Source: Massilia putida
GTDB lineage: Bacteria > Pseudomonadota > Gammaproteobacteria > Burkholderiales > Burkholderiaceae_D
Length of the DNA: 64,000 bases
Direction: 5' to 3'
NCBI RefSeq assembly: GCF_001941825.1
Contig: NZ_CP019038.1
Coordinates: 62,001 to 126,000 of the forward strand
Within the stretch, counting starts at the first letter, position 1; each line of letters opens with the position of its first letter. The notes beneath the pieces were generated by a model that was not told where the DNA came from, did no database searches, and saw only the letters and a list, made by a program, of their open reading frames with translations. The translations under genes and the position numbers were made by a program. Shown here in pieces: positions 11,514 to 60,940 of the stretch.

Positions 11514-12839
11514 TTATCTCGTACTACTATCAGTTTTTGCCCCCAATTTTGTTAGCGCCTCAAGTTCTGTTTTCCCTTTCGAAATCCGGTGTTCAACCAA
11601 TGCGAGTTCTTGCTTCTTTGCCTTCAGCATCTGATCGATCGTTACCAAATCGTCATGTCCGGAAAGTCTTTGATATCTTTTCTTTAGGATGGTGACGTAG
11701 TCTCTTATACTATCCACGTTCCGATGTCCCGCACGTTCTGCGACTTTTCTTATAATAAGTTCCCAATCAATATCTTTAAACGTTCCGCCGTTTGAAATCA
11801 AAAGAGCTGTCGCAGCGTCTATTTCGGAGTGGAGGAGATTGGTGAGGTAGTGAGCGCGAATCCGATGCCCATGTCCCTCGACTTTAGCTTTTCCGAAAAA
11901 TGCAGTAAATAGGTTGCTCATGGTTGTCAACGTCAAGGCTGCACCGGTCTTTGCCGAAATAAAAATTTCTTTTGGCTCCTTATAGGTCGAGATTTTTCTC
12001 CTGAATCGCTCGACGATATCTGCTCGTGGGCCCTCTATCCACTCCCGAGTTCGTTCCAGTAAGCTTGGTAGCACGCCTATATGTCTTGGCCTACCACCCT
12101 TGGTCTTAACGATACGCAATTCGCAGATATACCCGTCTCGGCGTAGATCATCAATTACAGACCACTCTGGAATTTGATCGACAGTCAAATTCTGCGCCTC
12201 GATCCGACGAACGCCCGTTTGGCCATACCAATCGATAAGCAGATGGTTGCGGTCCGTCAGGCTTGGGTTCTTCGGATTATCGGCTGCAATATACAATTTT
12301 GTCAGGTCTTCATTGGTGGGAGTAGGCTGAACACTATTGGCGTCATTCGCCCTCGGACGCACACCTGAAACCACCCCAAATCGTGAAGGACGAAATTTGC
12401 CAGGACGAGCACGCTTACTGGATAGCAGCGGCTCGAAATTTTGCCCATCGTTATGTCCGGGTATGCGTACGATGTCTTTTACATACCCGTTTACTTCAAG
12501 CCAACAGTACATGTCGAAAATTGCGTCGCATCGAGCTGTGGCCACATAAATTTTATTATCGCGATTTCTCTGTTGGTTCAACCATGTAAGAAGTTGCTTA
12601 TCTGTTACCTCAGCGTAGTTCGCTCCTTCTCCTTCCAAGTAGTTCCAGAAAAGCTGAATATATTGGGCGTAGGTCTTGACTGAGCTGGTCTCAAGTTGTT
12701 CGTGTATAACGAGGTTACGTAAGTAGTCACACACCGGCGCCACGAAATGAAACAGAGAGTCCACGAGCAGGGGTATGCCAGGATAGGGTCTGTCAGCATA
12801 GACAAACCGATCGCTAGTGTATTCGAGATGACATTCCAT
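11514..12839 (-). CDS. Tyrosine recombinase (site-specific integrase)
   Basis: 441 residues. A SAM-like core-binding region at about 35-120 is followed by a catalytic domain with all the expected residues: Arg at 211/212 (TGVRRIEA), Lys247 (TKGGR), His325-x-x-Arg328 (GHRIRAH), His372 (AGHRN) and Tyr381 (RDYV). The C-terminus is a short helical tail. It is the last gene of a five-ORF minus-strand operon, two bases after the small coiled-coil gene, and the only member with a textbook catalytic set in normal length. It probably performs strand exchange for island movement. Confidence 0.88.
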   Translation of the reverse strand: MECHLEYTSDRFVYADRPYPGIPLLVDSLFHFVAPVCDYLRNLVIHEQLETSSVKTYAQYIQLFWNYLEGEGANYAEVTDKQLLTWLNQQRNRDNKIYVATARCDAIFDMYCWLEVNGYVKDIVRIPGHNDGQNFEPLLSSKRARPGKFRPSRFGVVSGVRPRANDANSVQPTPTNEDLTKLYIAADNPKNPSLTDRNHLLIDWYGQTGVRRIEAQNLTVDQIPEWSVIDDLRRDGYICELRIVKTKGGRPRHIGVLPSLLERTREWIEGPRADIVERFRRKISTYKEPKEIFISAKTGAALTLTTMSNLFTAFFGKAKVEGHGHRIRAHYLTNLLHSEIDAATALLISNGGTFKDIDWELIIRKVAERAGHRNVDSIRDYVTILKKRYQRLSGHDDLVTIDQMLKAKKQELALVEHRISKGKTELEALTKLGAKTDSSTR

Positions 12840-12841
12840 AG

Positions 12842-13378
12842 TTAATGTCGATCGCTATCGTCGTGTGAACGTCGAACGGACCGGAGTGGTGTCACCTTTT
12901 GGTCGTAGTCCTTCATCCTATTAAGTTGAAGCAGAAGACGAGCTATTTCCTTATCCTTCTCCTGTAGCTCAGCTCTCGCGGCAGTATAATCATCCACATA
13001 GGATTGAATCCTCCTTTCTGCCGTTTTGAGTTGTTCACGCAAATTGCTGATCTCGCTTTCTTTTTTAGATTTACTTTGCCTTTTCTTTGCCAATCGTTCG
13101 AGAAGATGTTCCATTTTCTCGTGAAGTGCAGTGTATTCCACATCTGTTTCGTAGAGGGCGTTTCTGGAAAACCTTTCGATGCCAAGTGTCTCGTCTATCC
13201 ATGCGACAAACGTCGCGGGGCGCATATTCTTTGGAATCGACTCAATAGCATTGGTCTCCAGTAGTTCCTCTAATTTCTTAAGCTTGAAAACATACTTCTT
13301 GATTGCGTCGTTCCGCCGCTTCAACGCAATAGCTGGTTTATTTGCTCGCGGTGTACCGGCATCGTTCATATTAGTCAT
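12842..13378 (-). CDS. Small coiled-coil protein of the recombinase operon
   Basis: 178 residues from ATG 13378, which overlaps the end of the 827-residue gene by 8 bases (ATGACTAA). An N-terminal part with PATFVAWIDETLGIERFSRNALYET looks like a small DNA-binding fold. Residues about 95-160 form a long heptad-rich coiled coil (ISNLREQLKTAERRIQSYV). The build is like TnpC of Tn554 and like the small protein at 60530-60940, both partners of tyrosine recombinases. A role as accessory or directionality factor is inferred. Confidence 0.6.
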   Translation of the reverse strand: MTNMNDAGTPRANKPAIALKRRNDAIKKYVFKLKKLEELLETNAIESIPKNMRPATFVAWIDETLGIERFSRNALYETDVEYTALHEKMEHLLERLAKKRQSKSKKESEISNLREQLKTAERRIQSYVDDYTAARAELQEKDKEIARLLLQLNRMKDYDQKVTPLRSVRRSHDDSDRH

Positions 13379-15854
13379 CAGGGTCTCCCTGTGGTAAAGG
13401 GCATTGCGTTTCCGCCAAGGCAGCAATAAGCTTCTGATGAATCGCCCGGCTGGCTTCGCGGAGGATTGCCGGAGAGTCTTCAGATTCGGCAGTCTCTTGA
13501 TGAAACTTGATGGCGTTAATCAAGGAGCTCTGCGCAGATGGCGTTACCATGCTAAACGCGCAGCCGGTGCAGGTAATTTCGCTGGCTTGACCGTGATCCG
13601 GTTCCGAGGAACTCGTGCAGTTACAGGGACGCTTCTTGTGTGCCTTTCGAAGCACACAGTATCCCCAAGGGAATCCTGTCAATGAGACGCCCGTACGCTC
13701 GACTAGTCGCTCAAGTTTCTGCTTGTACTTGCGAGGCGAAACAACATCTGTATGTTTTGCCATCTGAGCATGAAGTCGTTGCGCAACTTGTTTTAATCGC
13801 GTGCCTTCCGAACCGCCGATATAAGTCAATCCTAGGGCCGCGCTGGCAAGAATGTTTGCGGTGTGCTCCTTGTCGACTTGAGCGATGATTTGCCCGATTT
13901 CGTTCTCCGAGGCGTAGCGACGGGTCATTTCACTGGTGAAGTGTCTCAGATGATACTGCAATGCGCCCCAATCGCCCTTATCGTAAATCCAGATATAAAG
14001 AATCGCGAAGAATCGCCGGAACTGATGCGGCTTGAACGTCCATGGTGTGCCATCTTCCAGTCGAGGAACGTCTACGAAATATCCAAATTTGCGCAAATTT
14101 TCGGCTAGGCGAAAAACCGGAAAATTCATCTCGCTTATTCCGTAGGTTCTATCAGATCCTGGGACATTGTACTGGAAGACATAGGGTTCATCAGTGAGCC
14201 GCCTGGCTCGCTCGCTCAATTTTTCAAGAACGTTTACCGCGGCCACCACTACCTCTGGAACTGGAATGCGTGATTCGGTCTTCAAAGTCTTATGGATGAA
14301 GCATTCAAGCCAAGGTTGACCAGAGTCATCAATATGAACACAACCTGCTTTGAGACCTATAATCTCCGAGGCGCGCCTGGCACTAAAGGCAGCGATAACC
14401 ACGGCGCAGGCAGTCATTAAAAATAGAATGGCAGAGTGGAGACTCATCCCATCACGCAGCGATTCGGCACGGGATTGTTCGTTCGAGGATTCTCCGGTGT
14501 CGCTAATCCGAGTCGGTACTATAGGAAACGGACTGGCGGGACCCGTCGGCCAAGTTCGAAACGAGTCTAGATGCTCAGCATATTTAACGGCGGCGCGACC
14601 CGGGTCCGCCTCATATACGATCTCAGCGTGGCTGTATAACGCTAGCAGGGTCGGAGCATAGTCGAGAACCCACCGTACAGAGCGCTCAATAAGACATGTT
14701 GCTTGCGCGACTGGAATAGTTCCGGTACGACCGACTTCCCGGCCGAGTTTCTGTGCTTCGGCTCGCGCAGATGTCGAAAAGAACGGAGCGCTAGTTAATG
14801 CATCTTCCAGATACCGTCGGTGATCGTAAAGGTATTGGAACGACATGAGAAATCGACGGAGGTGTTCTTCGGATACGGGCTTGTCGTCATAATCGTCCTT
14901 CGATTGCGCTAGCGCCGCCTCTGTTTGATCCGGTTGCTTTATTTCACTTAAGGTATTGGCCTTACCCTGACGTGGTACTCTCCGATTGTCCGTTTTAGTT
15001 GCTCCGGCTTGGTCAATGTATTGGTTGCTGGAAGTGTCCCGATCGATGATGACTGAATCGACGCTGTTATTCGCGTTTCCCTGCCCTAAAAATTCGGGTT
15101 CCGGGTTATTATTCACTTCTTTGCTCTGCGATTTCTTTGTTCTTGCTTTTATGAAGCCTGGCTGGTATAGCATGCACAGTGCTTCGGTTTCGTCTAAAAG
15201 CGTTATCAGGACACCAGACCGGCCGTTTGCTGCAAATGTGCCGAGCCCTGCATCGCTGAGAATAGCCATCCTGTCGAGAACTGCAGAGTTGATACTTTGG
15301 TTTGCTTTTTTTCGTACGGGGAAAACACGCATTGCTTTCCACCGACGCGTTTCAAGATCGTCATCAGCATGAAAGTTTGCTTCTGCAATTAGATTCTCAA
15401 GGTGTCGTTCCAAAATCGATTCAGTATTTAAGACGTTGTGGACACCATAGACCGCAGCACAGGCGTATTCCTCGCGGTCAGCCTTAGTGAGATCGGAGAA
15501 ACGCTTTATGCCGCGGCTTATCATCCAACACGCGAGTGTGGTCAGGTTGCTTACGATTGTTGCTTGAACATCTGCACTTTCGACTTCGGCGAGGGGGCCA
15601 GTGCGGACGCCGTACGCGATGCGTTTAACCGATTCGTAGAGATTGGGGTAGTCAGAAAGAACTCCTCCATTAGGTATCTTCACGTTGAATGTCAGCACCC
15701 TGGGAGGCTTATTGCCAATATTCCGAACTGTCCAATCATGGGCGCTGTAAGGGCCAATCAACATCCATTCTGGTGAATAGCCCTTATCGCTGTGGAGAAT
15801 AGGCGGTATAGTGCTGTCAACCGCTCTTGATTGAACCAACTGTGCATGCACCAT
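13371..15854 (-). CDS. Large tyrosine-recombinase-family protein with C-terminal Cys cluster
   Basis: 827 residues. The first ~330 residues have no clear family and include a polar low-complexity linker (about 235-320). A recombinase catalytic domain occupies about 470-660: Arg493/494 (SARRASEI), Lys522 (HKTLK), His610-x-x-Arg613 (HQFRR), His635/638 and Tyr647 (RRYASE). The last 100 residues have a probable zinc site (CVLRKAHKKRPCNC and CTGC). It starts two bases after the preceding gene stops and ends overlapping the coiled-coil gene, so expression is tightly coupled. Confidence 0.78.
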   Translation of the reverse strand: MVHAQLVQSRAVDSTIPPILHSDKGYSPEWMLIGPYSAHDWTVRNIGNKPPRVLTFNVKIPNGGVLSDYPNLYESVKRIAYGVRTGPLAEVESADVQATIVSNLTTLACWMISRGIKRFSDLTKADREEYACAAVYGVHNVLNTESILERHLENLIAEANFHADDDLETRRWKAMRVFPVRKKANQSINSAVLDRMAILSDAGLGTFAANGRSGVLITLLDETEALCMLYQPGFIKARTKKSQSKEVNNNPEPEFLGQGNANNSVDSVIIDRDTSSNQYIDQAGATKTDNRRVPRQGKANTLSEIKQPDQTEAALAQSKDDYDDKPVSEEHLRRFLMSFQYLYDHRRYLEDALTSAPFFSTSARAEAQKLGREVGRTGTIPVAQATCLIERSVRWVLDYAPTLLALYSHAEIVYEADPGRAAVKYAEHLDSFRTWPTGPASPFPIVPTRISDTGESSNEQSRAESLRDGMSLHSAILFLMTACAVVIAAFSARRASEIIGLKAGCVHIDDSGQPWLECFIHKTLKTESRIPVPEVVVAAVNVLEKLSERARRLTDEPYVFQYNVPGSDRTYGISEMNFPVFRLAENLRKFGYFVDVPRLEDGTPWTFKPHQFRRFFAILYIWIYDKGDWGALQYHLRHFTSEMTRRYASENEIGQIIAQVDKEHTANILASAALGLTYIGGSEGTRLKQVAQRLHAQMAKHTDVVSPRKYKQKLERLVERTGVSLTGFPWGYCVLRKAHKKRPCNCTSSSEPDHGQASEITCTGCAFSMVTPSAQSSLINAIKFHQETAESEDSPAILREASRAIHQKLIAALAETQCPLPQGDPDD

Positions 15855-15856
15855 GG

Positions 15857-17623
15857 CTAGAATAACTTGAATGGTCTATAAGTAGGACGACGAGCGTTTG
15901 CCTTTTCTGTCGCCTGTAAAAATGCAGACGCAGTGTCGCCTAGTGCGAACTTAGCAAGCGCTACTTCTGCCAATGCAAGCCACGGAAGCCACCGTGTCTC
16001 CCAGGCTTCTGGATGCGCTTTCGTAGCCTCGGCTTCCTGGGACTTCAGATATTCCTCGAAAAGGATCAAATCGGTTATGTTATCTACAGTCCCAACAAGG
16101 TAGCGCATTTCGCAGTTTGGGCACGCGTCGAGTCTCGTGCAACTCTCTCCTCTACGTGTGCCAGGTTGGACACCCGCCTTTGGATTCAAACATGCTATCC
16201 CGAGGCCTGATCTCGCAGCGTCTGAAAATAGCGCTTCCGCCTCCTCTGGGGAAATACCAAGTTTCTCCGCGGCACCTTCGATCGAAGCAATAATTACAGA
16301 TTGAAATAGTCGGGTGAATTCGCGTACTTTCTGAACATAAACGAGCTTCGTATGCGTTCGATGCGTGTAGTTATTACCTGTTGTTGAAGATAACACGTGG
16401 TCCGCAATCGCCTGAGCGGACTCTGTACTTACTGCTGGATCTTCATGCTGCACCTTTAGCAAATACGATGGTCTTATGAACGATGGGCGTATAGGAAGAT
16501 CTCTTAGCTCAGCATGATCTTGTAGGAATTCTTTAAAATCGTCCCGAGCCCGAAATTCTGTAATCCCAATAATATCGTTCTGGCGTGTGTCAAGGAATAG
16601 TAGCTCTGCTACTTCCCCATTCGCAATCTTGCGGTTGCGGGAAGACATGATTTCGTAATGCTGAATAGCCTGTACGGCCGAGAGCTCGTGGCCAGGCTGA
16701 GGTTGAATCGGAAGACAGTCATTAATGCGCTTATATCCGGCCCGCGCTTTCAATCCGAAAGACACGATCATGTGGTTGGGATCTTCCGATTTTCGAAGAC
16801 ACGCAAGCGGCATCTCACGCACCACCTCACAGTTCGCTCCCGTATCTATGAGAATGATGGTCCACAACGCGACCGTTGCTCGCTTATGAGGATGAAGATA
16901 TGCATGTAGGGCTTCGTTGCCACCCCACTGTCGTTTAATATGATGGTATCGGCCACTGATACCATTGGCATTGCCGCCTAGTGCTCCGATTAAGAGATTC
17001 AGAGCGTTGCCTAAATGGCAATCCGTCTTGCCTGATATGAGCCTCGTCCTATTGCGACTGCGCTCTGAAACTGATCGCTCCGGTCGGTCCAGCAAATCTA
17101 CCATTTCTTCTGGCGAATGTGACGCATTCGCCAGTGCATGCTGTCCCTTATTCCAATGTTCGAACCAATGAAGAAAGTCTTTCTCTGCGCAACGACGAAT
17201 CGCCTCCAGGCGGTTTGCGTTAAGCCGCGCAATCTCCACAACCAAGGCGTCTAAAGTTAACGCTCGTACTTTGGCGGGAGGTAAATTTGCGCAAAGAGCA
17301 TTGATGAATTCACGCGCTTCTTCCTTATCGCTCTCGTCGAAATATTGGCTGATCTTATGTGTTGCGGCATGTAGTTCTATGGCGCTTTCGTCTAACAGTG
17401 CAGTTTTCGCGGAGCTGAGTTGCGCGAGCGAGGGTCGATTCTTCGTTTTTAATGTCGACTTTGCGCCTTTTATTCCCTTTAGTTTCACGGCAGGCACCAG
17501 TAGGCTATCGGCAAGTGCAGCCCATAGCCGATTCATTGCCTGTATCTTCATGTGCTTTGTGATGTCTAGTACGTGCTTCGCCGGGCTAGAATTAATAAGG
17601 TGGTCCCGCCACTCATAAAGCAT
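15857..17623 (-). CDS. Recombinase-like protein with degenerate catalytic site and Cys cluster
   Basis: 588 residues from the first ATG. The middle (about 250-440) resembles a tyrosine-recombinase fold (WTIILIDTGANCEVVREM), but the first arginine and the HxxR motif are not in their usual form, so it may be structural rather than catalytic. The C-terminal part has CLNPKAGVQPGTRRGESC and CPNCEM, a probable zinc-binding site. The frame stays open and protein-like for another 76 codons upstream, to 17851, without ATG, GTG or TTG, overlapping the end of the 17812-18885 gene. See the separate finding on a frameshift. Confidence 0.65.
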   Translation of the reverse strand: MLYEWRDHLINSSPAKHVLDITKHMKIQAMNRLWAALADSLLVPAVKLKGIKGAKSTLKTKNRPSLAQLSSAKTALLDESAIELHAATHKISQYFDESDKEEAREFINALCANLPPAKVRALTLDALVVEIARLNANRLEAIRRCAEKDFLHWFEHWNKGQHALANASHSPEEMVDLLDRPERSVSERSRNRTRLISGKTDCHLGNALNLLIGALGGNANGISGRYHHIKRQWGGNEALHAYLHPHKRATVALWTIILIDTGANCEVVREMPLACLRKSEDPNHMIVSFGLKARAGYKRINDCLPIQPQPGHELSAVQAIQHYEIMSSRNRKIANGEVAELLFLDTRQNDIIGITEFRARDDFKEFLQDHAELRDLPIRPSFIRPSYLLKVQHEDPAVSTESAQAIADHVLSSTTGNNYTHRTHTKLVYVQKVREFTRLFQSVIIASIEGAAEKLGISPEEAEALFSDAARSGLGIACLNPKAGVQPGTRRGESCTRLDACPNCEMRYLVGTVDNITDLILFEEYLKSQEAEATKAHPEAWETRWLPWLALAEVALAKFALGDTASAFLQATEKANARRPTYRPFKLF

Positions 17624-17787
17624 CTTTTCCCACCGCGTGGAATCTAGACTTGCGTATTCATGTGTTGCAAGAGTTGAGAAAAATTCCGCTTCGAAGCCGC
17701 TCTGTTTATGTTGCTCAAGGAAGAGCAGAAGCGAGGTGAAGACGTGGTGGTAGTCTTTCGCTTGCGTTTCTGAGCCGGCCCCATAAA

Positions 17788-17804
17788 ACCTATAGAGTAT
17801 AGGT
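17788..17804. repeat. Palindrome ACCTATA-GAG-TATAGGT
   Basis: A perfect 7-3-7 inverted repeat just downstream of the stop of the 17812-18885 gene and inside the upward extension of the next frame. Its half-site ACCTATA is the same as in the 19-bp palindrome at 19985-20003, which suggests one protein binds both places. Confidence 0.5.
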
Positions 17805-17811
17805 ATTGCCC

Positions 17812-18885
17812 TTAGTAAAAATATCGAGCTAGAGGTTGGAATGTCCTGTAGTCATACGGCATTTTCCTTTTGTGTTTTTCAATCAAAAAAGCGAAAGGAG
17901 ATAAGGGCACCGCCTCCGCTCCTTCATCGGGATCGGCTTTCCGGGTGACGTTTGCGGTTCCTGAGGCAGCTCGCTTTCGTCCCTTGGGAGAAACTATTTC
18001 GAATTTCTTCGGGAGTAAGCCTGCAACTGCCATATGCGCCATCAGATTGTTCGTACATAGACGATGTCGATCCTTCGTCTTCGGCGAGAGTAAGTCTCCT
18101 GTCCGATCCGAAACTTGATCCGCAAGAATTAGATTCCCTAGTCGCTCCACAAATTGCCGCCAGTCTTCTTCACTGAGCGCTTGAGCCGACACATAGCCTT
18201 CTTCGACAAAAAAAGCATAGAGGCTTCGGATAAAATGATCAAAGCGACTAGCATAATTGGCGAGCCAAGTTCTTTCTTCTACGCCTGCCGTTTGTCGCAA
18301 ATTCTTTACAAGAGTACAAGCGGATTCCAAAAAATCCCTTCCGATTATGTCTGCGATATCGGTGTAGTCGTACGTGACCGCATTTCCCCCCTTCCAAGGG
18401 GTAGTCTGCAAAACATGGTACGGCCCATCTTTCGACAGAACCTTTGGATCAAAACGCATGGGGATCAAGCCCGCCTTAGCATATCGTGTTAGCGTTCCAA
18501 GGTAGCGACTCTTGAGCTGTTTTTTTCTTACGTCGGATTTTTTTTGGTCGCTTTCGATACGGCTAATTAACCGAGTGGTGAATTCGTTCCAGTCGGCTAT
18601 CTCCATAGCGTTGGCAGTGGCAATGTTCTTTTTATTCAGAACAGACTCTATGGTGGTGAAGACTAACTGCAGATGTGAAACATACGCCTCTACGCAATAC
18701 TCGGTCGTGTAGCCCTTTGACTGCGCCATGGCGAACTCGTGCTTGGCCAGGGCGCAAATCTTCTCAACGAAGTTGGGCCCGAGTCGGTTCGCAAACGAAG
18801 AATATTCATGCGAAACAGGTTTGTCTCGTACCTTCGTCTGCACGACTAAGTAAGGGTGGGTCAGGTCAGGGTCTGCAGGTTTCAT
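17812..18885 (-). CDS. Recombinase N-terminal-type protein, first gene of the operon
   Basis: 357 residues. No catalytic recombinase residues are seen. Two similar helical segments, each ending in a loop of the form AKAGLIPMRFDPKVLSKDG and AVAGLLPKKFEIVSPKGRK, look like repeated core-binding (SAM-like) domains. The protein stops at YFY just where the next frame (15857-17851) is already open. A shift of -1 on a run of five T at the end (minus strand of 17817-17821) would join both into one protein of about 1000 residues. It is closest to the thyA end of the island. Confidence 0.6.
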   Translation of the reverse strand: MKPADPDLTHPYLVVQTKVRDKPVSHEYSSFANRLGPNFVEKICALAKHEFAMAQSKGYTTEYCVEAYVSHLQLVFTTIESVLNKKNIATANAMEIADWNEFTTRLISRIESDQKKSDVRKKQLKSRYLGTLTRYAKAGLIPMRFDPKVLSKDGPYHVLQTTPWKGGNAVTYDYTDIADIIGRDFLESACTLVKNLRQTAGVEERTWLANYASRFDHFIRSLYAFFVEEGYVSAQALSEEDWRQFVERLGNLILADQVSDRTGDLLSPKTKDRHRLCTNNLMAHMAVAGLLPKKFEIVSPKGRKRAASGTANVTRKADPDEGAEAVPLSPFAFLIEKHKRKMPYDYRTFQPLARYFY

Positions 18886-19027
18886 TCCAGTGTCGCCGCT
18901 AACGAATCAGTAATATTGCCCAGCGAGAACAATCGGCCTGAGTCAACGCATTATAGCGAGCCCATTCAAACTTTACTTGTGCGTCGACGTTTCGCTAAGT
19001 TCCTGCGAAGTCGAATTCAGATGCGAA

Positions 19028-19864
19028 TCACTTAGCGATCGGAGCAGGAATGTGCGGATGCGGGTCGTAATTTATAACTTCGAAATCCTCGAACTTGTAA
19101 TCGAAAATTGAGGCTGGCTTGCGCTTGATTACTAGTTTTGGCAATGGTCGTGGCTCGCGGGTAAGTTGTAGGCGTGCCTGCTCTAAGTGATTGGAATAGA
19201 GATGCAAATCTCCGATCGAATGGATAATTTCTCCCACTTCAAGGTCGCACTGTTGTGCAATCATATGAGTAAGGAATGATACGCTCGTACAGTTGAACGG
19301 GATGCCCAAGTACAAATCACCTGAGCGTTGCGTTAGATGCGTCGAAAGGCGCCCGTTAGCAACGTAGAACTGATACATGATGTGGCAGGGCGGCAAAGCC
19401 ATTTTGCCTTCAAGCGCATTGAGTTCAGGTGCTTTTGACTCGTCAGGCAAATATGCGACATTCCAAGCATTGATAATATGACGCCGACTGTCAGGGCGCT
19501 TTTTTATGCCATCGATCAAGGCTGCAATCTGGTCGTAGGTTTCTCCGTTCGGGCCTTTCCAAAACCGCCATTGTGCACCGTAGACTGGACCGAGTTCGCC
19601 TTCCGGAGTTGCCCACTCATTCCAGATTGAAACGCCATTATCGTTTAGGTACTTGATGTTTGTATCGCCCCGTAGGAACCACAGGAGTTCGTGCAGGATG
19701 GACTTAATATGAAGTTTCTTGGTCGTGAGCAACGGAAAGCCGTCGCTCAGATCGTGTCGATACATGCGACCGAAGACCGACAGGGTGCCGGTGCCCGTTC
19801 GATCGCCTTTATGGACCCCGTTGTCAAGTACGTCACGCAGCAGGCTAAGGTATTGCTTGTCCAT
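19028..19864 (-). CDS. thyA: Thymidylate synthase, complete, island-borne
   Basis: 278 residues, a full-length Thy[12 protein letters not shown] near the N-terminus, the catalytic cysteine in [30 protein letters not shown], and the folate/nucleotide region ending [17 protein letters not shown]. It makes dTMP from dUMP with methylene-tetrahydrofolate. Codon use is more AT-rich than in the truncated native copy (20044-20601), and an insertion around [15 protein letters not shown] separates the two, so it is a foreign paralogue and not a duplicate. It probably restores the function lost by insertion. Confidence 0.96.
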
Positions 19865-51909: not shown

Positions 51910-52350
51910 ATGACCAAAGTTGAGATTTTTACCGACGGTGCCTGCAAGGGAAATCCGGGCACCGGCGGCTGGGGCGCGCTGCTCGTGGCCGATGGCGGCC
52001 ACGAAAAGGAAATCTTCGGCGGCGAGCCGAACACGACCAACAACCGGATGGAACTCCGCGCCGTGATCGAGGCACTGACCACGCTCAACCGCCCATGCCA
52101 GGTCGTGCTGCACACGGACAGCCAATATGTGCAGAAGGGGATTTCGGAATGGATCCACGGCTGGAAGGCGCGCGGCTGGAAGACGTCGACCAAGGAACCC
52201 GTCAAGAACGACGACCTGTGGAAAGCGCTGGACGCCGCCCAGCAGCAGCACGCCGTCGAATGGCGCTGGGTGCGCGGCCATAACGGCCACCCGGGCAACG
52301 AACGCGCCGACGCGCTGGCGAATCTGGGTGCGGCTTCGGTAAAGCGCTGA
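51910..52350 (+). CDS. rnhA: Ribonuclease HI
   Basis: 146 residues. Catalytic residues visible in order: Asp in [13 protein letters not shown], Glu in [13 protein letters not shown], Asp in [14 protein letters not shown] and Asp in [12 protein letters not shown]. It removes RNA from RNA-DNA hybrids. In related genomes dnaQ follows; here only the first codons of dnaQ remain before foreign DNA. Confidence 0.98.
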
Positions 52351-52400
52351 TTTTGCTATACTAATTGGTTTTCCCTAACGCTTTTTGAGTCTTCACGCGC
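52351..52400 (+). promoter_or_regulatory. Native dnaQ promoter region
   Basis: TATACT at 52356-52361 is a good -10, with a TTCGGT-like -35 in the end of rnhA. It would now transcribe into the island. Confidence 0.4.
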
Positions 52401-52454
52401 ATGCGCCAAATCGTGATCTTCTATATAGGAAGCAGGAGTGTAAACGGTCAGTGA
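52401..52454 (+). pseudogene. dnaQ: dnaQ 5' fragment (DNA polymerase III epsilon), cut by island
   Basis: ATGCGCCAAATCGTG encodes MRQIV, the start of beta-proteobacterial DnaQ, which continues LDTETTG (first exonuclease motif). Here the frame continues IFYIGSRSVNGQ and stops at 52454. Its place right after rnhA is the conserved dnaQ position. The break is at about 52415. The rest of dnaQ should lie at the other end of the island, beyond 64000. Interruption of the proofreading subunit would give a mutator phenotype unless the gene is re-started there. Confidence 0.8.
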
Positions 52455-52561
52455 GTGACCCCATTCTCTTCTGTGATGCAGCTCTTCTAAAACCTCTTGT
52501 TGGTCAAATGTCGAGTAAAGTGTAAACCTAGAGCCGTTTTGCCCCCTCTCTGTTTACACTT
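52436..52561. repeat. Repeated AGTGTAAAC sites at the island edge
   Basis: AGTGTAAAC occurs at 52437-52445 and 52519-52527 in direct orientation and at 52552-52560 inverted. The last two extend to a perfect 10-bp inverted repeat (AAGTGTAAAC / GTTTACACTT). Three copies within 125 bases at the element edge suggest recombinase or accessory-protein sites. Confidence 0.5.
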
Positions 52562-53098: not shown

Positions 53099-54877
53099 AT
53101 GAATCAAGACTGGATCCTTCAACAAAGAGAAACTCGACGAGCGTTCTCAAACTCAACTTGGGTGCCCTTGAGGGAAAGCAGCACGGATGAGCAGGGTAAT
53201 GTTCGTGCTGTGGGTTATGTCAGCGAAGTATTCGCATGCGGATCTGTTGCCTTTCCGCCGGAGCATCGCGGCTTTGCGGAAGGACTTAGCTGGAGTGAAA
53301 TCGGGATTGGACGCAGTGCGCAACCATATGCCTACGAGGACGGCTATTATTCATCTATCGAGCAGTATCAATATCACGATAAAGAACCAATAGGAGTCAA
53401 TCTAGTCTTTGAACACCCCCAGCCTGTTGTAGGCGGAAAGCTGTGGATTTTAAATCCTGATCTAGTTGTCGCGCTGCATCTAATAAAGGAGGGGGGCGAG
53501 TGGGTCAGGCCAGAAGAAAACTTCGCGGTAGTGGCACGCGAAGTTGTTGACGAAAAAGGGAATTATCGTCGCATTGAAATTAAGCGAGAGTTCCTGATGG
53601 ATTACTTGGCCGCAAGGAATCTGTCGCTCCGACTGTCCTATTACCGTCAACGAGTAGAGAATGTGGCTACTTTGGAAAACAGTCCGTACTCGAATCTGGT
53701 AGACCTACAGGAACAGCGGGACGGGGGGCGATTTGAGCTTCGAGTTCGCACTTTGGATACTATTTTTGGGGGGAGTTGGGCTTCGTTTCGCATGTGGCGA
53801 ACGGACGTCGATGAAGATGATGACGCGCCGGTAATGGGGCCAGAGAACAATGATAACGTCGAGACCGAGAGCTCCGAAGGATATCGTGGTGGTTACAAAG
53901 GCGTGCGCGTAGAAGGGGAGTTTTGGCGAGACGAATGGATCGAGCACCAAGGGCTGAGTGTGCGTGTGCGAGGAGATGCCGACAAGAATCTTCCTCAATT
54001 CATTGTGGAGACCGATGGGGCACGAATTGCATCTGTAGATTTAGATAATGAAGATATTGGCCGATGGCTTTGGTTCCGCCCAAGCATAGTCAACGAGCTT
54101 CTTAAGTATCGTGGTTTTTCATTAGATTGGTATACCGCAGAAACCGGCGCTATACACTCAACATCCGGTTACGTAACTCCTTTCGGTGTCAACGGTTCTG
54201 ACCTTGTAACCGTCTATGCTTATGATATCGCGCGTCTAGACGGCTGGGAACAGCACATTTGGGCTGCACATAATGTTGTCCCCGATGGAAAAGTCTCTAG
54301 CGAATTATTAGCTGCACAGGTAAGAGCTGAACCAGCCGGCACTTATGCTGTTGAGTTTTTGCTCTTCCAAACTATGCGCCAATTAGAGCAAGGCTTCCGT
54401 GATAGATTCGGCGTATCGTTATATACCCATGACATTGACGATGCAGCAGTTATGCAGCATATGTCTCGTTTTGCAAGTACAGATCAGGCCTCATTGTTGA
54501 GACTGGCGAAAGAACTCGTGCGCGTGTTTTCGGATCGACTTAATGTCACTGTACTTCGTAAGCTTGCGGCTCATGCGGAAAAGGAAAAGCTAGGCTCGAA
54601 CAAACTTCTACAGGATATTTTGGCACAGAAGGTGGGTGCTGATAGAGCACGCCAAGTGCTTAGTGTCATTGCTGGTGCATACGATATGCGAGTAGGTGAC
54701 GCACATCCGACAGGTTCTAAAATCCGTGATGCTATAAAACTCGCAGGAGTTGATGAAAGCTTGTCGTATCTGCAGCAGGGCGAGCAACTAATTTCGAATT
54801 TTGGAGAGGCAGTCTGGTGGATCGGAAGATTGCTTTTCGGGCCGCCTGAAGGCGATGGGTCAAAAACCATTGGCTGA
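53099..54877 (+). CDS. Unknown 592-residue protein with HEPN-like C-terminal motif
   Basis: Not recognised as a named family. The first ~400 residues look beta-rich and soluble (many Trp, Tyr, acidic residues; an acidic loop DEDDDAPVMGPENNDN near 245). The last ~190 residues are helical and contain Arg531-x4-His536 (RVGDAH) in a helix followed by PTGSKIRDAIKLAGVD. R-x4-6-H is the active motif of HEPN ribonucleases, which are frequent effectors in phage defence. No signal peptide or membrane segment. First cargo gene in the island. A defence role is inferred from motif and context only. Confidence 0.6.
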   Translation: MNQDWILQQRETRRAFSNSTWVPLRESSTDEQGNVRAVGYVSEVFACGSVAFPPEHRGFAEGLSWSEIGIGRSAQPYAYEDGYYSSIEQYQYHDKEPIGVNLVFEHPQPVVGGKLWILNPDLVVALHLIKEGGEWVRPEENFAVVAREVVDEKGNYRRIEIKREFLMDYLAARNLSLRLSYYRQRVENVATLENSPYSNLVDLQEQRDGGRFELRVRTLDTIFGGSWASFRMWRTDVDEDDDAPVMGPENNDNVETESSEGYRGGYKGVRVEGEFWRDEWIEHQGLSVRVRGDADKNLPQFIVETDGARIASVDLDNEDIGRWLWFRPSIVNELLKYRGFSLDWYTAETGAIHSTSGYVTPFGVNGSDLVTVYAYDIARLDGWEQHIWAAHNVVPDGKVSSELLAAQVRAEPAGTYAVEFLLFQTMRQLEQGFRDRFGVSLYTHDIDDAAVMQHMSRFASTDQASLLRLAKELVRVFSDRLNVTVLRKLAAHAEKEKLGSNKLLQDILAQKVGADRARQVLSVIAGAYDMRVGDAHPTGSKIRDAIKLAGVDESLSYLQQGEQLISNFGEAVWWIGRLLFGPPEGDGSKTIG

Positions 54878-55093
54878 CTATGATTTTTTCGTAGTGAGCC
54901 GACGCGTGTCCACCCTACCGAGGTTACACTTGGGATCAGTTCGATTTTGTGACGTACCGGCGGTGCCAGGCTTGGCGCCTGAAGTGAAAGACGTCGCGCG
55001 AAGCCGATAGACGGTCGTACGTGAGATTGTCCTCTTTTTTGATTTATTGATCGCCTTCTGTCGACGGCTATTGCTTGTGTTCTCCCAAAAAAT

Positions 55094-56089
55094 ATGAAAA
55101 ATCGAAGAAAAATAGGCGAAGTCAAACGAGAGATTCTCGATGGATGTGAATACGGGTTACTCAGAGCGGAACGAGTCTCCTCCATTAGATATATTGCTAG
55201 GTATCCCGATTTGTTCATGTACAACGGAGGTGCCATAGCTCATTATACCGATTTGGCTGGCTTTATTGGAATCTTGTCCAATAAAGGCTTTTGGCTATCG
55301 GATGCTCGATATCTGAATGATGAAGAAGAGTTGCACAACGGGCTGAACCTTGCACAAAGTTTGCTGCAAAGGCTTATCGCGAAAAATAGATGCACATTCT
55401 TTACGGATGTGCTCGATGGGGTGGCTAGAAAACTGTCAATCGATCCGCTCCGCGATACATACGTGTGTTCGTTTTCAACAAACTCCGACATGCTAGAGCA
55501 GTGGCGAGCATATGCTAGAAATGGGACAGGCATTTCTATTGAGTTCGATCTTGCAAGAACGACTCATTACCCACACTTCGGTTTGCCTCCACAATACTTT
55601 ACTATGAAGGTGGTCTACGACGACGAGGTAAAGATCTGGATTTTGCTTTCTGTTATATCGACGTATCGACAGGGTTTCTTGTTTGACTTGGCGCGGCATC
55701 CGAATGAATGCAAAGATTATATCGATGACTATATTCGAAGCTTGGCATTTCGCCTATCGTCGCTATTTGTGAACTTCAAACACTCGTCGTTTCGCTCGGA
55801 GCAGGAGGTGCGGCTTGTTGATGCGTCTCGAAAATTTGATTTTTACAATGGGAAGCGCTATAGAGCATCCAATGGCATCATTGTGCCTTACGTTTGCACA
55901 TATGACACGAAACTAAAAAACGATAATGGTGAACCTATGGAGCTCGATAATCTGCCAGTTCGTAAAGTCATGGTGGGACCTGCGGCTCATCAAAAGGCAA
56001 TGATAAGTAGTATAAAAAATTTTCTCGAAGATTTTGGATACGGTGGCGCTATCCCGGTAGCGAAGTCATGTATTCCTTACAGGGGTTGA
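55094..56089 (+). CDS. DUF2971-domain protein
   Basis: 331 residues. HYTDLAGFIGILSNKGFWLSDARYLNDEEEL, then VCSFSTNSDMLEQWRAYARNGTGISIEF and FRSEQEVRLV are the standard DUF2971 landmarks (read in parts). The biochemical function of DUF2971 is unknown; it is frequent in accessory and defence regions. The start is uncertain (ATG 55094; no good ribosome site). It lies 217 bases after the HEPN-like gene, in the same direction. Confidence 0.85.
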   Translation: MKNRRKIGEVKREILDGCEYGLLRAERVSSIRYIARYPDLFMYNGGAIAHYTDLAGFIGILSNKGFWLSDARYLNDEEELHNGLNLAQSLLQRLIAKNRCTFFTDVLDGVARKLSIDPLRDTYVCSFSTNSDMLEQWRAYARNGTGISIEFDLARTTHYPHFGLPPQYFTMKVVYDDEVKIWILLSVISTYRQGFLFDLARHPNECKDYIDDYIRSLAFRLSSLFVNFKHSSFRSEQEVRLVDASRKFDFYNGKRYRASNGIIVPYVCTYDTKLKNDNGEPMELDNLPVRKVMVGPAAHQKAMISSIKNFLEDFGYGGAIPVAKSCIPYRG

Positions 56090-56203
56090 TCCGCATTAGT
56101 GGGAAGGGCCCTGTAGAAGGACTTGCCGGCCTATCTGCGGCGCCCCCAAACAATGCGTTACTCATCCACCACAGAAGGTGACAATCACGGCAGAATTACC
56201 ACA

Positions 56204-56545
56204 CCGTATGGGTTAATCGCGCTGGCCGGGTTTTCGGGCGAGTTTGGCGTAATCATGCTGCTGTACCTAAAGCATGCTTGGGAACCCCAGTTCGCTGCCG
56301 GCGAATCCGGCGAGGTCGACCTGTCAATGCGATCTGCGAGGGTGCCGTCCTGCGTGTGCGGCCGAAGGCGATGACGATGGCCGTGATCATCGCCGGTCTT
56401 CTGCCAGCCATTGCGGTTTCCGGGACGGGGTCGGAGATCATGCAGAGATCGCGGCGCCGATGGTGCATCGGATGATCACGGCGCTGCTGCTTTCAATGTT
56501 CGTGGTGCCGGTGGTACCTCTTGTTGCGGCGTTGGCGGTTGAGGA
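56204..56545 (+). pseudogene. CusA/CzcA-type RND efflux pump, decayed C-terminal fragment
   Basis: Three successive frames each read as part of a heavy-metal RND pump: [23 protein letters not shown], then [19 protein letters not shown] with GTGSEIMQR, then [21 protein letters not shown] (each quoted in part). Two frameshifts separate them. The rest of the pump is missing, so this is a relic of a lost copper/silver or cobalt/zinc/cadmium resistance locus. Confidence 0.8.
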
Positions 56546-56666
56546 CGCAGCCGCCTACCACCAATACGATTTCGAAATCGGCCTGAAGTGGGACACTACC
56601 AGGTGAGCAGTGCTATCGTTTGGTGTACGTGCGATCGGCGATGCCATCAAGACCAGTAGAACATCA

Positions 56667-57862
56667 CTACTCAAAACGCTCATCGCTGATTCGATCGCGC
56701 GCGGTTTCGAATTCTCGCTCTCTGGCCACTTCTTGCGCGCACTGGGCCTTGGCCGCCATTGCGAGCGGGCCAAGGGGTGGGATCAAAGGCGCGATGCTGT
56801 CCAATAGCCGAGCGTTTGCCTCCATGAGTGCGGCGCGCGACCCGCTCCAACTCATGGGCCGGAACCGTGCAATGAATGTTGCGAGCACTGCCTCGGGATT
56901 AGGAGCACCCATAAGTAGTGCCACAGCTTGTTCGGACCATGCGTGCGCTACATTTGCTTCCGCGGGCCGATCAAACGTTATGATCGCAGCCGCAAGTGGG
57001 TAGCGAACCTCAGCGTCTAAGTTGCACCAAGCGATGAGTGTAGCGGGGGGAATCGAATCCATCGGGTTAGCTCGATGGTCTCCCGAATCGTCAAATACCC
57101 GCACACCAACCCGACGGTCTTCTTCGTCACCCGAGAATAGAGCATTTAATACTGGAACAGGTTGTACTTGTAATAGGGCTGTAAGCAGTTCCTGATTCTC
57201 GAACGAGTGAGCCTCGTAGTTCGCTATGGCCTGCCGTAGTTGAATGGCAACTTCAGCTGCAATCGGGCCTGCGGCGCTTGCAGTCAGGCACGCCTTCGCA
57301 ACCTCCGCAAGATGGTATGTTTTGCTCGAATCGATGGTCCGGAAGTCGATACGACGTAACAGCTCTTGCCCTGCCAAAACAAGCTCTGGCTCATGGTCCC
57401 GCTTGTCGGAACGGTCCGAGTAGAAACGCATGTCTAGGATTTCCAGCGCAACATCAAACCCGTCGGGCTGGCCGGCAATCAACAAGAGCAGCTTTTTGAA
57501 GGGACCGGGGGGCATATGATCCGTGACGCGGCCGAACGTAAGGTATCGGAACGCCAGGATCGGGACTTGGGCGTGCAGTGCGCGCTCAAGTCTGGCTACG
57601 CCGCGCGCATCGATCTCTACGGCTGTTTGTAATAACGGCGAAAGCTGGAGCAAGCTTGGGGTTTCGAGCGCGGCATCAAGTAGGTCTTGTGCGAGGGGTC
57701 TGTCTCGCTCCCAGACAGCTGCCAGAAAGCCCCTGAGAACTTGAACATCATGGTGCTCCGACGGTACTTGCCCAAGACCGTCGGCGAGTTTTTCCCAAGT
57801 GGCGAGAGCCTGGGGTAACGCTGTCGCCAACCCCTGACCAAACGCCCATGTTCGGGCCCCAC
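56667..57862 (-). pseudogene. C-terminal part of a large helical-repeat protein, cut by IS3 element
   Basis: About 398 codons without their own start, entering directly from the left end of the IS. The sequence is rich in leucine and alanine helices (HDVQVLRGFLAAVWERDRPLAQ, LLQLSPLLQTAVEIDARGVA), like the C-terminal helical repeats of large NTPase-type proteins. I do not recognise the family. The N-terminal part does not reappear on the other side of the IS, so material was deleted. A defence-type STAND-like protein is one possibility, not supported by any motif. Confidence 0.6.
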
Positions 57863-57912
57863 TGAACCGCCCCGGGTTTTGTAGAGGCTCCATTGTTTGA
57901 GAAAATGGAGCT

Positions 57913-58236
57913 ATGAAGAAGCAACCCAAGTATTCCCCAGAAGTCATCGAGCGCGCCGTGCGCATGGTCAGCGAGGCCGCCAGCGAGTACAACTCGCAGT
58001 GGGCAGCCATCGAATCGATCGCAGCCAAGATCGGCTGCACACCTGAAACCCTACGTCGCTGGGTACGCCAGCAGGAGCGCGATACCGGCCAGCGTCCAGG
58101 GCCGACCACCGCCGAGGAGGAGCGCATCAAGGCGCTGGAGCGTGAAGTGCGCGAGCTGCGCAAGGCAAACGAGATCCTGCGTCTGGCGAGTGCGTTTTTC
58201 GCCCAGGCGGAGCTCGACCGCCGCTTCAAATCGTGA
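57913..58236 (+). CDS. IS3-family transposase OrfA
   Basis: 107 residues. A helix-turn-helix ([29 protein letters not shown]) for end binding, then a leucine-zipper-like coiled coil ([22 protein letters not shown]) for oligomerisation. It ends ..[12 protein letters not shown], the usual end of OrfA in this IS3 group. The stop overlaps the orfB start (GTGA). Confidence 0.93.
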
Positions 58237-59135
58237 GGGCATTCATCGACCAGTACCGCCATGCTTACGGTGTCGAGCCGATCTGCCGGGTGATGCAGGT
58301 CGCGCCGTCGGGCTACTGGCGACACGCGGCGCAGCAGCGCAATCCGGCACTGCGCTGTTCACGAGTCCAGCGCGACGACGTGCTGAGCGTCGAGATCGAA
58401 CGGGTCTGGCAGGCGAACCTGCAGGTCTACGGGGCCGACAAAGTGTGGCGCCAACTGCGGCGTGAGGGAACCGATGTGGCCCGCTGTACGGTGGAGCGCT
58501 TGATGCGCAAGGCCGGCCTGCGAGGCGTCATGCGCGGCAAGGTCGTGCGCACCACGGTAGCGGATGCGAAGGCGCCATGCCCGCTCGACCGGGTCAACCG
58601 CCAATTCAAGGCGCAGCGGCCGAACCAGCTGTGGGTCAGCGATTTCACTTATGTCTCGACCTGGCAGGGCTTCGTCTACGTAGCTTTCGTCATCGACGTC
58701 TTTGCCCGGCGCATCGTCGGCTGGCGTGTCAGCAGCTCGATGCGGACAGACTTCGTCCTCGACGCCTTGGAGCAGGCCTTGTACGCGCGTCAGCCGGAAC
58801 GAAACGCGTTGGTACACCATAGCGACCGCGGCTCGCAATACGTGTCGATTCGGTACAGCGAGCGTCTGGCAGAAGCCGGCATTGAGCCGTCTGTGGGCAG
58901 CAAGGGCGACAGCTACGACAACGCTTTGGCCGAGACCATCAACGGACTCTACAAGGCTGAGTTGATCCACCGCCGCGCTCCTTGGAAGACGCGTGAGGCC
59001 GTCGAACTGGCCACGCTGGAATGGGTGTCCTGGTTTAACCACCACCGCCTGCTTGAGCCACTCGGCTATATACCGCCGGCCGAAGCTGAGGCAAACTATT
59101 ACAAGCAACTGAGCAGTCAAGCCATCCCGGCCTGA
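58233..59135 (+). CDS. IS3-family transposase OrfB (DDE integrase)
   Basis: 300 residues from GTG 58233. An N-terminal HTH_21-like part ([16 protein letters not shown]), then the rve core with the acidic triad: Asp in LWVSDFTYV, Asp in [12 protein letters not shown] and Glu in [12 protein letters not shown]. It is intact and may be active. In this family an OrfAB fusion by -1 frameshifting is the working transposase. Confidence 0.95.
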
Positions 59136-59190
59136 CTCACACTAACCGGCCTCCACGAAAGCCGGGGCGGTTCACTATGGAGGTAGTGAA

Positions 59191-59628
59191 ATGGACAACA
59201 AACCGCACTTAGCATCTGAACCAATTTGCGAAGAGCAGTATGCGCAAGTTCCGGCGGACTTCCCGCGCCCAGTACACCTCAGTGCAGTTTCAGGCGCGCA
59301 GCCAAAGCTCTTGATGACGGAGTACAAAGGACGCTTTTACAGTCCAGGCTGCACACCGCCGGAAATTTTCGCCAAATGGGATATGTGCGAGGACCTTGCT
59401 AGACAGATGTCAGCGAAATCTCTTGAGTCGAAAGCCGGGAAGCGCTCTCACATGTCCGAGCTTGAGATTCTCGACCAGTACCTTGCCCGACTGATTGCCA
59501 CGCGGTGGACTTCCGAAGACGAGGCGCGGTGGGTAATCCGTCGTGTAGCCGCGATGCTCGATTGGCCCGTACCACCTACGGCGGAAGGGCATGGCGGGCC
59601 TGATTCTTCGCTTAGCGCTAAAGCTTAA
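59191..59628 (+). CDS. Unknown 145-residue protein with SGAQPKL motif
   Basis: Not recognised. Strong ribosome site (ggaggt) just outside the IS end. SAVSGAQPKLLM near residue 35 resembles the SGxQxKL stretch of HipA-type toxin kinases, but the kinase core is absent and the remainder (CEDLARQMSAKSLES, then SEDEARWVIRRVAAMLDWP) is helical. It may be a complete small protein or a cargo accessory. The IS sits 16 bases before its ATG, so its own promoter was replaced or lost. Confidence 0.55.
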   Translation: MDNKPHLASEPICEEQYAQVPADFPRPVHLSAVSGAQPKLLMTEYKGRFYSPGCTPPEIFAKWDMCEDLARQMSAKSLESKAGKRSHMSELEILDQYLARLIATRWTSEDEARWVIRRVAAMLDWPVPPTAEGHGGPDSSLSAKA

Positions 59629-60529
59629 TCGTGTTGCCCCCCGGGAGCGTACATGCACTTCAAGAACAACGGGAGCGTGAATGTGCCGCGGCCTACTTTG
59701 TATCCATGAACACGACGATACAAAATACTGCGACTCGCCATTGGCGTTTTTCTGTGGCGTCGCACCATTTTTATCCCGCTCAGTGCCATTTCAGAGGTTC
59801 TTGGGCCACCTGTTCACGCCTATAAAGCCTGCGACCAGTGTAAGCGCTGCCGTGCGGTCACCTGCCAGTCTTGTGCTTGGCTTCGGTTTCGGCCTGGCAC
59901 ACGTCGTCTGACGACTGCAAGCAGGTGCTGGTTGTGCTGCTCGACTCATGCTTGAGCTTATGGCGCGCATGACGCAGCTCGATAGAAAGTAGTTCAGCAG
60001 AATCTAGTGTCTTGCAGGAAATTATTCGACTTTATTTAGCCTTCAATAAAACCTAATAAAGACCGCACTTCCCCTAGAGCATAGGCCGTAAACGCGATCG
60101 AACTTGCCAATCCTAGCGTGACTGTAGAAAAAGGCACATGAGCAATAAAGCCTCTCACCAGGGCTAGGGGCGGCTGTTCGATCACCAGCCAATCCTATGC
60201 TTGACTTCAATTCCGGCGTGGCGGGCATCGTCTAACGAAAGTAAGCGGCCTGTCGCCGACCGTACACTGAACAGCCAAGTGCCGCCGAAAGTAGATAATG
60301 ATGGGATAGACGCCCCACCCATAACGGCATCGATGTGCCAAAGTGGAAGTATCGAGCAGCCACTTGAACCAAGGGGGCAGCATCATGTAGATCACGACAG
60401 TTGGTATCGACCTGTCAAAGAACTACGTGGTGCGGTGGTGCACGATGGAGCCGCCGCGTGCGGTTAGAGACACCGACGGGGCATACGGCAAATCTCTCAG
60501 TCGTGCACAGAACGTATAAATCCGGGACT
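59629..60529. other. 901-bp stretch without intact genes; IS110 remnant inside
   Basis: No convincing complete gene. At about 60388-60440 (plus strand) the frame reads ITTVGIDLSKNYVV, which matches the N-terminus of IS110-family transposases (usual form ITTVGIDLAKNVF). It is preceded by ATG-TAG and breaks off soon after, so it is a relic. The rest, including clusters of short frames at 59640-59910, looks like decayed sequence. Confidence 0.55.
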
Positions 60530-60940
60530 TTATCCTTTTTCCTTTTTCGGGAGGGGCGCCATAAGCCTTTCACGTGAAAGGCCAGCAGCAGAGGCGTTGT
60601 GAATAAAGCGATTCGCGATTTCCGCCAGCTTCTGCATCTCTGCTTTCAGCAGGTCATTCTCCTCCTGCAGCTTAGCGATCCGTTCGATTGCGTCGAGCAT
60701 GCTTTGTGGGCGAGCGACTTTTTTCAACGTCGCTACTGCAGTCCGCAACTGCTGGCGCTTTGATTCGTAGGCGGACATGAGCACCGGCTTCTTGTGGAGG
60801 GCCTGCCGGGTTGGTTCATAACCCAATATGCTCTTTGCGCCCAAACAAATTGTCTCCCATTTGAAGGGCTGGCCCTTTGGCCATTCCCGGATCATCTCTG
60901 CGATTAACTTAACGTCGCTTGGCGTGATTGCCTTAGGCAT
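60530..60940 (-). CDS. Small coiled-coil protein of recombinase trio (GmtX-like)
   Basis: 136 residues. N-terminal part DVKLIAEMIREWPKGQPFKWETI, then GYEPTRQALHKKPVLMSAY, suggests a small DNA-binding fold. Residues about 85-112 (LDAIERIAKLQEENDLLKAEM) form a coiled coil. The ATG overlaps the stop of the 691-residue recombinase by 8 bases. Size, position and partners resemble GmtX of gamma-mobile-trio elements. Assignment rests on arrangement and size, not on a search. Confidence 0.6.
   Translation of the reverse strand: MPKAITPSDVKLIAEMIREWPKGQPFKWETICLGAKSILGYEPTRQALHKKPVLMSAYESKRQQLRTAVATLKKVARPQSMLDAIERIAKLQEENDLLKAEMQKLAEIANRFIHNASAAGLSRERLMAPLPKKEKG

Follow-up and report, generated by a model that had tools for sequence, protein, structure and literature searches.

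An island in the genome of Massilia putida very probably represents a lineage of GInt elements for which the 5′ end of dnaQ is the main insertion site, with a recombinase-end terminus that doubles as a translation-start cassette and is fused in frame to the dnaQ body. The island measures 13,704 bp (C3:114419-128122) and runs from position 52419 of the window, meaning the whole 64,000-nucleotide stretch of DNA analysed (G000:C3:62001-126000), to the equivalent of 66122, beyond the window end. Its GC content is 51.9%, against 63.9 and 61.2% in the flanks; the distal 400 bp, at 49.8%, are AT-rich compared with the host and hardly so compared with the island.

At the left junction, an intact rnhA is followed from 52401 by ATG CGC CAA ATC GTG ATC TTC TAT ATA ... 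TGA, which encodes MRQIVIFYIGSRSVNGQ and stops at 52454. The order of parts is ATGCGCCAAATC, GTGATC (52413-52418), and island DNA beginning TTCTATATAG, with native dnaQ sequence extending to ATC (codon 4, to 52412) and island DNA from 52419. The features of this end are:

51910..52350, + strand: rnhA, the host gene left of the island, intact (open reading frame, also used as a query)
52401..52454, + strand: dnaQ 5′ stub of 17 aa, MRQIVIFYIGSRSVNGQ, comprising 4 host codons, the 6-nt exchange stretch and island codons
52413..52418, + strand: exchange (overlap) stretch of the left end, 6 nt, GTGATC, from junction comparison
52419..52445, + strand: left end arm of the element, TTCTATATAGGAAGCAGGAGTGTAAAC, from comparison of 13 left junctions
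52520..52559, no strand: inverted pair GTGTAAAC / GTTTACAC inside the left end, with similar pairs seen by eye in relatives

The inverted GTGTAAAC / GTTTACAC pair marks possible recombinase sites. Native dnaQ starts were surveyed among 141 dnaQ matches in genomes of the family, of which 110 5′ ends were inspected (30 loci and 80 fetched) and 109 were readable; an RQ-type start followed by LDTETTG was present in 107 of these, the exceptions being this genome and G091. The earlier note had placed the split of dnaQ by the island after the fifth codon, which proved accurate within one codon, as the break falls at codons 5-6. Chance or an assembly slip is very unlikely, because 14 related loci in other genomes are split at the same dnaQ codon. 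The left GTGATC is unlike the natives of the genus, which read GTCCTC (5/7) or GTTCTC (2/7), and for this reason it may be read as a donor fingerprint.

The dnaQ body resumes 13.7 kb on, past the window end, at C3:128123 (L005:15123), headed by island sequence:

L005:15090-15122, beyond the window: start cassette
L005:15123-15818, beyond the window: dnaQ body

At L005:15090 (C3:128090), ATGAGTTTACAAACACGCACTAACCGTATGGTA GTCCTC GATACC opens a 242-aa frame that matches DnaQ models, in which 11 island-supplied codons, MSLQTRTNRMV, head the dnaQ body in frame. The fused start aligns with RQIVLDTETTG of the solved E. coli epsilon. The earlier note had predicted a dnaQ body at the far end of the island preceded by island DNA, and the body was found there with island DNA, a start codon and new first codons ahead of it. 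It had also named an intact dnaQ elsewhere as evidence against its reading; at E 1e-60 DnaQ has a single match in this genome, and a second dnaQ is ruled out at that threshold. The other three RNase_T proteins of the genome resemble, by eye, an oligoribonuclease, a DEDDh exonuclease and exonuclease I. That the island simply breaks dnaQ and leaves the strain without proofreading is extremely improbable: the native start does lie 13.7 kb from the body, but the 242-aa frame is intact, with its own ATG and a full exonuclease match, and the same arrangement is kept in 14 relatives. A broken gene was rejected on account of this in-frame body.

Inward from the dnaQ end, the island carries ginA-like, ginB-like and ginC-like genes, a gene for a small protein, cargo and a short distal end. 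Cargo occupies 53099 to 60530, next after the ginD-like gene. In order from the left end, the genes are:

53099..54877, + strand: cargo, 592-aa protein, no family found
55094..56089, + strand: cargo, DUF2971 protein, 331 aa
56667..58325, - strand: cargo, C-terminal part of a PD-Lambda-4_A-like anti-phage gene (profile positions 885-1283 of 1283), cut where an IS3 element sits
57913..59135, + strand: IS3-family insertion sequence, two ORFs
59191..59628, + strand: cargo, 145-aa protein, no family found
60530..60940, - strand: ginD-like small protein, 136 aa
60933..63119, - strand: ginC-like large protein, up to 728 aa
63010..64000 in the window, - strand: ginB-like tyrosine recombinase, 549 aa (whole gene L005:12010-13659)
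L005:13721-14945, beyond the window: ginA-like gene, split over three frames

A piece of GinA matches Phage_integrase at E 2.2e-12, and GinB matches the same family at E 0.0043, below the cut-off, and NF041502 with 236 bits against a cut-off of 350. GinC matched no Pfam or NCBIfam model, and the GinD-like protein gave weak ZapB and DpdI matches only. Among the nine island proteins scanned, no relaxase or conjugation families were found, and the NCBIfam matches at E 0.01 included no Gmt models (GmtX/GmtY/GmtZ, Gamma-Mobile-Trio), which we take to be present in that library. The ginA gene is one open frame in all 18 relatives read and is split over three frames here; as T runs are close to both breaks, either decay or sequencing error may account for them. 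If the split is real, the island may be stuck and is probably no longer able to leave unaided. Separately, the PD-Lambda-4_A-like gene between 56667 and 59135 is cut at the IS3 element, and its C-terminal third alone is recognised. A viral origin of the island was considered and rejected, as five pattern matches among viral contigs yielded none that was confirmed.

Tn554 proper comprises tnpABC, with two recombinases, and targets radC. Multiple tyrosine recombinases and an additional small protein, TnpC in Tn554, are common to both, but the island has three recombinases and lies in dnaQ. SXT/R391 ICEs, which carry conjugation genes and a different integrase set, replace the 5′ end of prfC, likewise a conserved gene. 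The earlier note had likened the use of dnaQ to that of prfC by SXT, and the way of working does correspond. Kinship is another matter: that the element is an SXT/R391-like ICE placed in dnaQ instead of prfC is hardly credible, given the fixed GInt order of three recombinases and a small protein, the lack of a relaxase or conjugation family in the nine scanned proteins, the different target gene and the small size of 13.7 kb.

By module layout and order, the island is classified as a GInt (Tn6571 subfamily of the Tn554 family). According to the main text of PMC5385486 (Bardaji et al. 2017), one end of a GInt holds three recombinase genes and that of a small protein, the cargo begins directly behind ginD, and the distal end is short; these elements undergo staggered exchange over 6 nt, require all four gin genes, and insert at the 5′ or 3′ ends of conserved genes. 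In GInts, GinA and GinB are tyrosine recombinases, GinC is a degenerate one, GinD resembles TnpC or has a helix-loop-helix end, the distal end is AT-rich, and excision gives a circular form. One end of the island carries the three integrase genes followed by the small gene, and a 6-nt exchange can be read from the sequence, with 6 variable nucleotides at the same two codons in 13 left and 15 dnaQ-side right junctions. That main text differs in containing neither "dnaQ" nor "start codon" and in describing no start cassette. Tn6571 is named as a transposon subfamily equal to GInt in PMC10121019 and PMC8865565, whose main texts on these ginABCD members of the Tn554 family likewise do not contain "dnaQ". 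The strand-biased circularizing integrative elements (SEs) of PMC10214605 carry 6 host nucleotides beside the intA-proximal end, the same polarity as suggested here for the ginA end, but they have two recombinases plus Tfp and Srap, and their protein clusters are separate from those of GInts. In the main texts of openly licensed papers, no mention was found of dnaQ as a GInt target or of a coding start cassette at dnaQ; PMC8138268 mentions neither GInt nor dnaQ, and the part of PMC3091717 consulted lists dnaQ as a border of a plasticity region in Photorhabdus/Xenorhabdus, with the end unstated.

Scanning of named genomes with a 20-row ginB alignment yielded 19 related loci. Fourteen lie at the same dnaQ codon (14 of the 17 that could be judged), three lie at another gene, and two (L055, L058) are cut by contig ends. 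All four gin parts occur in order in 17/19 loci and in the element studied here, the two cut loci being the exceptions, and a ginD-like small protein follows the ginC-like gene in 18/19. The dnaQ-site loci come from beta- and gammaproteobacteria, namely Duganella, Herbaspirillum, five Pseudomonas, three Halomonas/Vreelandella, Leclercia, Aeromonas and two beta MAGs. In each of the 14, the dnaQ body lies right beyond ginA in the same orientation, and the catalytic Asp codon lies 158-193 bp from the point where the ginA match starts in 13 loci, and 648 bp from it in L060.

The three remaining loci (L054, L059, L061) are Pseudomonas GInts that share another site, a gene that looks by eye like a MocR/GntR-type regulator and lies upstream of a phosphoglucomutase-like one. 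They form one clade beside a dnaQ-site element in the ginB and ginC trees, which were rooted by midpoint only, so a single switch of target would suffice. The lineage is rare: it was found in 4/392 genomes of the family (three below E 1e-190) and 3/369 of the class (two distant only), this genome included in both counts. No place covering 80% of the Leclercia gin end was found in any of 5426 E. coli genomes; 5374 of these gave some match, and the 15 matches listed correspond to dnaQ only, at 2% of the query. A plasmid copy in S. stutzeri (p1_PM101005, L086) sits at a non-dnaQ site and still has the cassette, which indicates that the cassette belongs to the element; its left end was sought and not found. 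The same plasmid also carries, at L167 28499-34407 and following, a second module, headed by an annotated site-specific integrase together with three hypothetical proteins; genes annotated as anti-phage come next.

The cassette was compared over 16 ends, comprising the 14 dnaQ-side ends, the one described here and the plasmid copy. An ATG in the dnaQ frame ahead of any stop is present in 16/16 ends, which are from related elements and thus not 16 independent trials; the other two frames have one in 1/16 and 0/16, and 0.23 are expected per shuffled end. The cassette has 6-13 codons, begins with ATG and ends in Arg-x-Val, giving starts such as MTNRQVVL, MNNRIVIL, MTVYKSVANRMVVL, MSRHFSGYRTVIL, MVNKLGTDRVVVL, MSNRIVIL and MVNRLVVL, among others. 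The ATG lies 8 to 15 codons ahead of the Asp codon at a position that differs between subgroups, and Arg(-5), Val(-3) and Leu(-1) are invariant in 14 fused proteins.

The conserved codons at the end could instead be a recombinase binding arm only, with the in-frame ATG incidental and dnaQ using an internal or other start. A TTTA(C/A) motif located 28-29 nt from the exchange site in 9/16 ends is what a binding site would give, and differences between near relatives (16, 7 and 20 at codon positions 1, 2 and 3) reveal no clear coding constraint. This alternative is nevertheless very unlikely, as ATGs are confined almost entirely to the dnaQ frame and vary in position by subgroup, 12/16 ends lack a second in-frame ATG, and dnaQ of the Pseudomonas relative G789 has retained a start of this kind although ginB was not found there. 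In the other 4/16 ends, this one included, a further in-frame ATG lies closer to the body, and either ATG may be the true start. A translated cassette is the preferred reading, and the predicted N-terminal peptide of the cassette-started DnaQ, in this strain or in Duganella qianjiadongensis, is MSLQTRTNRMVVLD (or MTNRQVVLD).

The earlier note had proposed a new promoter together with new first codons, and the in-frame island codons bear out the latter part. As to the former, a sigma-70-type promoter scan of the 16 ends rose clearly above shuffles in one (Aeromonas, 0.005), with the other 15 at 0.19-0.90. A new promoter in the element end, predicted to start transcription inside the short stretch between ginA and dnaQ, is nonetheless plausible. 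Outward transcription from the gin end was demonstrated for one other GInt, as stated in the main text of PMC5385486.

The exchange site is 6 nt long and coincides with the two codons that immediately precede the one for the first catalytic Asp. Left junctions were obtained for this element and for 12 of the 14 relatives, those of L052 and L053 not being found. In the 13, dnaQ sequence continues to codon -3, followed by 6 variable nucleotides and the element, with TTCT directly next in 10/13. The left flank is native-like in 12/13 junctions, with C2 and BN102 one nucleotide off their relatives at codon -3, and that of Leclercia is itself cassette-like. On the right side, GTA or GTT of the element is followed by the 6 nt and then by GAT or GAC.

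The right 6 nt equal the commonest native version of relatives in 9/13 elements, and the left 6 nt do so in 1/13 (P. koreensis). For these comparisons, relatives with 65% identity or less, or without the locus, were dropped (4/10 for Aeromonas, 3/9 for BN102, 4/13 for V. sedimenti and 4/9 for Leclercia). The right 6 nt are native-equal in the island studied here, Duganella, Herbaspirillum and the four Pseudomonas of the GM48/C2/koreensis/TH43 kind (7, 7, 7 and 2 natives). In BN102 they read GTACTG, as in 3/5 natives with G789 left out, and in Aeromonas ATTCTG, as in 6/6 relatives, with GTTCTC on the far side. Leclercia has GTCCTC, found in 2/5 relatives (GTTCTC in three), and V. sedimenti has ATCTTA, found in 2/9 relatives but not its closest; V. 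zhuhanensis and HyVt-328 match 0/9 relatives. Several left 6 nt are unlike Val/Ile-Leu codons (ATCGGT, CAATCG, GAGTTC, GCTTCC), which suggests that they may derive from earlier stays of the elements at other sites.

As read from these junctions, the ginA side seems to receive the host 6 nt, with the same polarity as in SEs, which hints at strand-biased integration. Selection for working codons could also explain a host-like dnaQ side, since only insertions with working codons would survive, and in three Halomonadaceae and Leclercia the right 6 nt differ from the version commonest among natives. We consider this explanation a real contender and yet rather doubtful, as the hosts' own synonymous choice is matched in 9/13, and in Aeromonas the native ATTCTG stands on the dnaQ side, although the far-side GTTCTC would encode equally workable residues. 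PMC10214605 describes strand bias in GInts as still elusive, and natural junctions such as these bear on it.

As read from the sequence, the 6-nt exchange fuses the cassette in frame to the dnaQ body, while the former start survives only as a dead stub at the opposite end of the island. In the proposed mechanism, translation of the cassette would complete the first beta strand of the exonuclease domain, and proofreading would thereby survive. If the dnaQ-side 6 nt come from the host, frame and residues would be kept on every insertion. As codons of the catalytic motif define the site, it would be usable in a wide range of beta- and gammaproteobacteria. We further put forward, as a tentative proposal with the balance tipped slightly against it, that the terminus is dual-coded, with ∼20-40 bp serving as both recombinase arm and first coding piece of the proofreader, and that strand-biased exchange gives the host 6 nt to the gene side, placing every insertion in frame by rule. 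The element would thus control expression of the proofreader and would leave its start behind when lost, as in G789; it may also tune the mutation rate, or render its own loss by deletion harmful.

These elements can land in highly constrained codons of a replication gene without breaking it, by means of a ready-made replacement start. The finding adds dnaQ to the GInt targets named in the main text of PMC5385486, which are the 5′ end of an ABC transporter gene, ssb and the ribonucleotide reductase alpha gene. It also carries a warning for annotation, as the N-terminus of DnaQ in such strains is no ortholog of the native one.

One start of this kind appears to have outlasted its element. G789 (L180), among the six closest of nine relatives of Pseudomonas BN102, has the dnaQ start MTVCNNATNRKVVL (L180, about 1400-1540). 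Alignment of its 94-nt head to the element ends of GM48 and C2 gives scores of 32 and 33.5, against 13.5 and 13 for the best of 500 shuffles. The Duganella end aligns less well (13 against 12.5), four other ends show no clear alignment (3 to 11.5), and three natives do not align (2-4). ginB, the only gin gene sought, was not found in G789 at E 1e-10 with an alignment that finds the copy of this island, in a genome for which completeness is not given. The likeliest explanation of this alignment is that the element is gone and its start still heads dnaQ.

In G091, no ginB was found and no element motif was seen; its non-native dnaQ start, MERRHTTSDRLVVL, is cassette-like, lies beside another gene and may be the scar of a lost GInt or of a rearrangement. 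This start lies at about 1440-1560 of L022, where it reads MERRHTTSDRLVVLDTETTG. The left dnaQ stub of Leclercia (L082, about 2040-2140) resembles a GInt start cassette (ATGAGTATTGCAGACACACATAACGCCGACAGGATC) and is preceded by a GTTTACA motif, which would fit an earlier element having re-headed the site before a second one inserted there.

In the Halomonas relatives L079 and L081 (about 1515-2000), the end of rnhA and the start of dnaQ overlap; through the insertion, the rnhA frame seems to be lengthened by element DNA, giving open frames of 196 and 200 aa. Elsewhere in the window, at 11514-19864, another multi-recombinase module lies directly beside thymidylate synthase and encodes a 441-aa Phage_integrase protein, a 194-aa coiled-coil protein and proteins of 827, 588 and 357 aa. 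This module has no clear similarity to the proteins of the dnaQ element and is probably what the earlier note counted as the first island.
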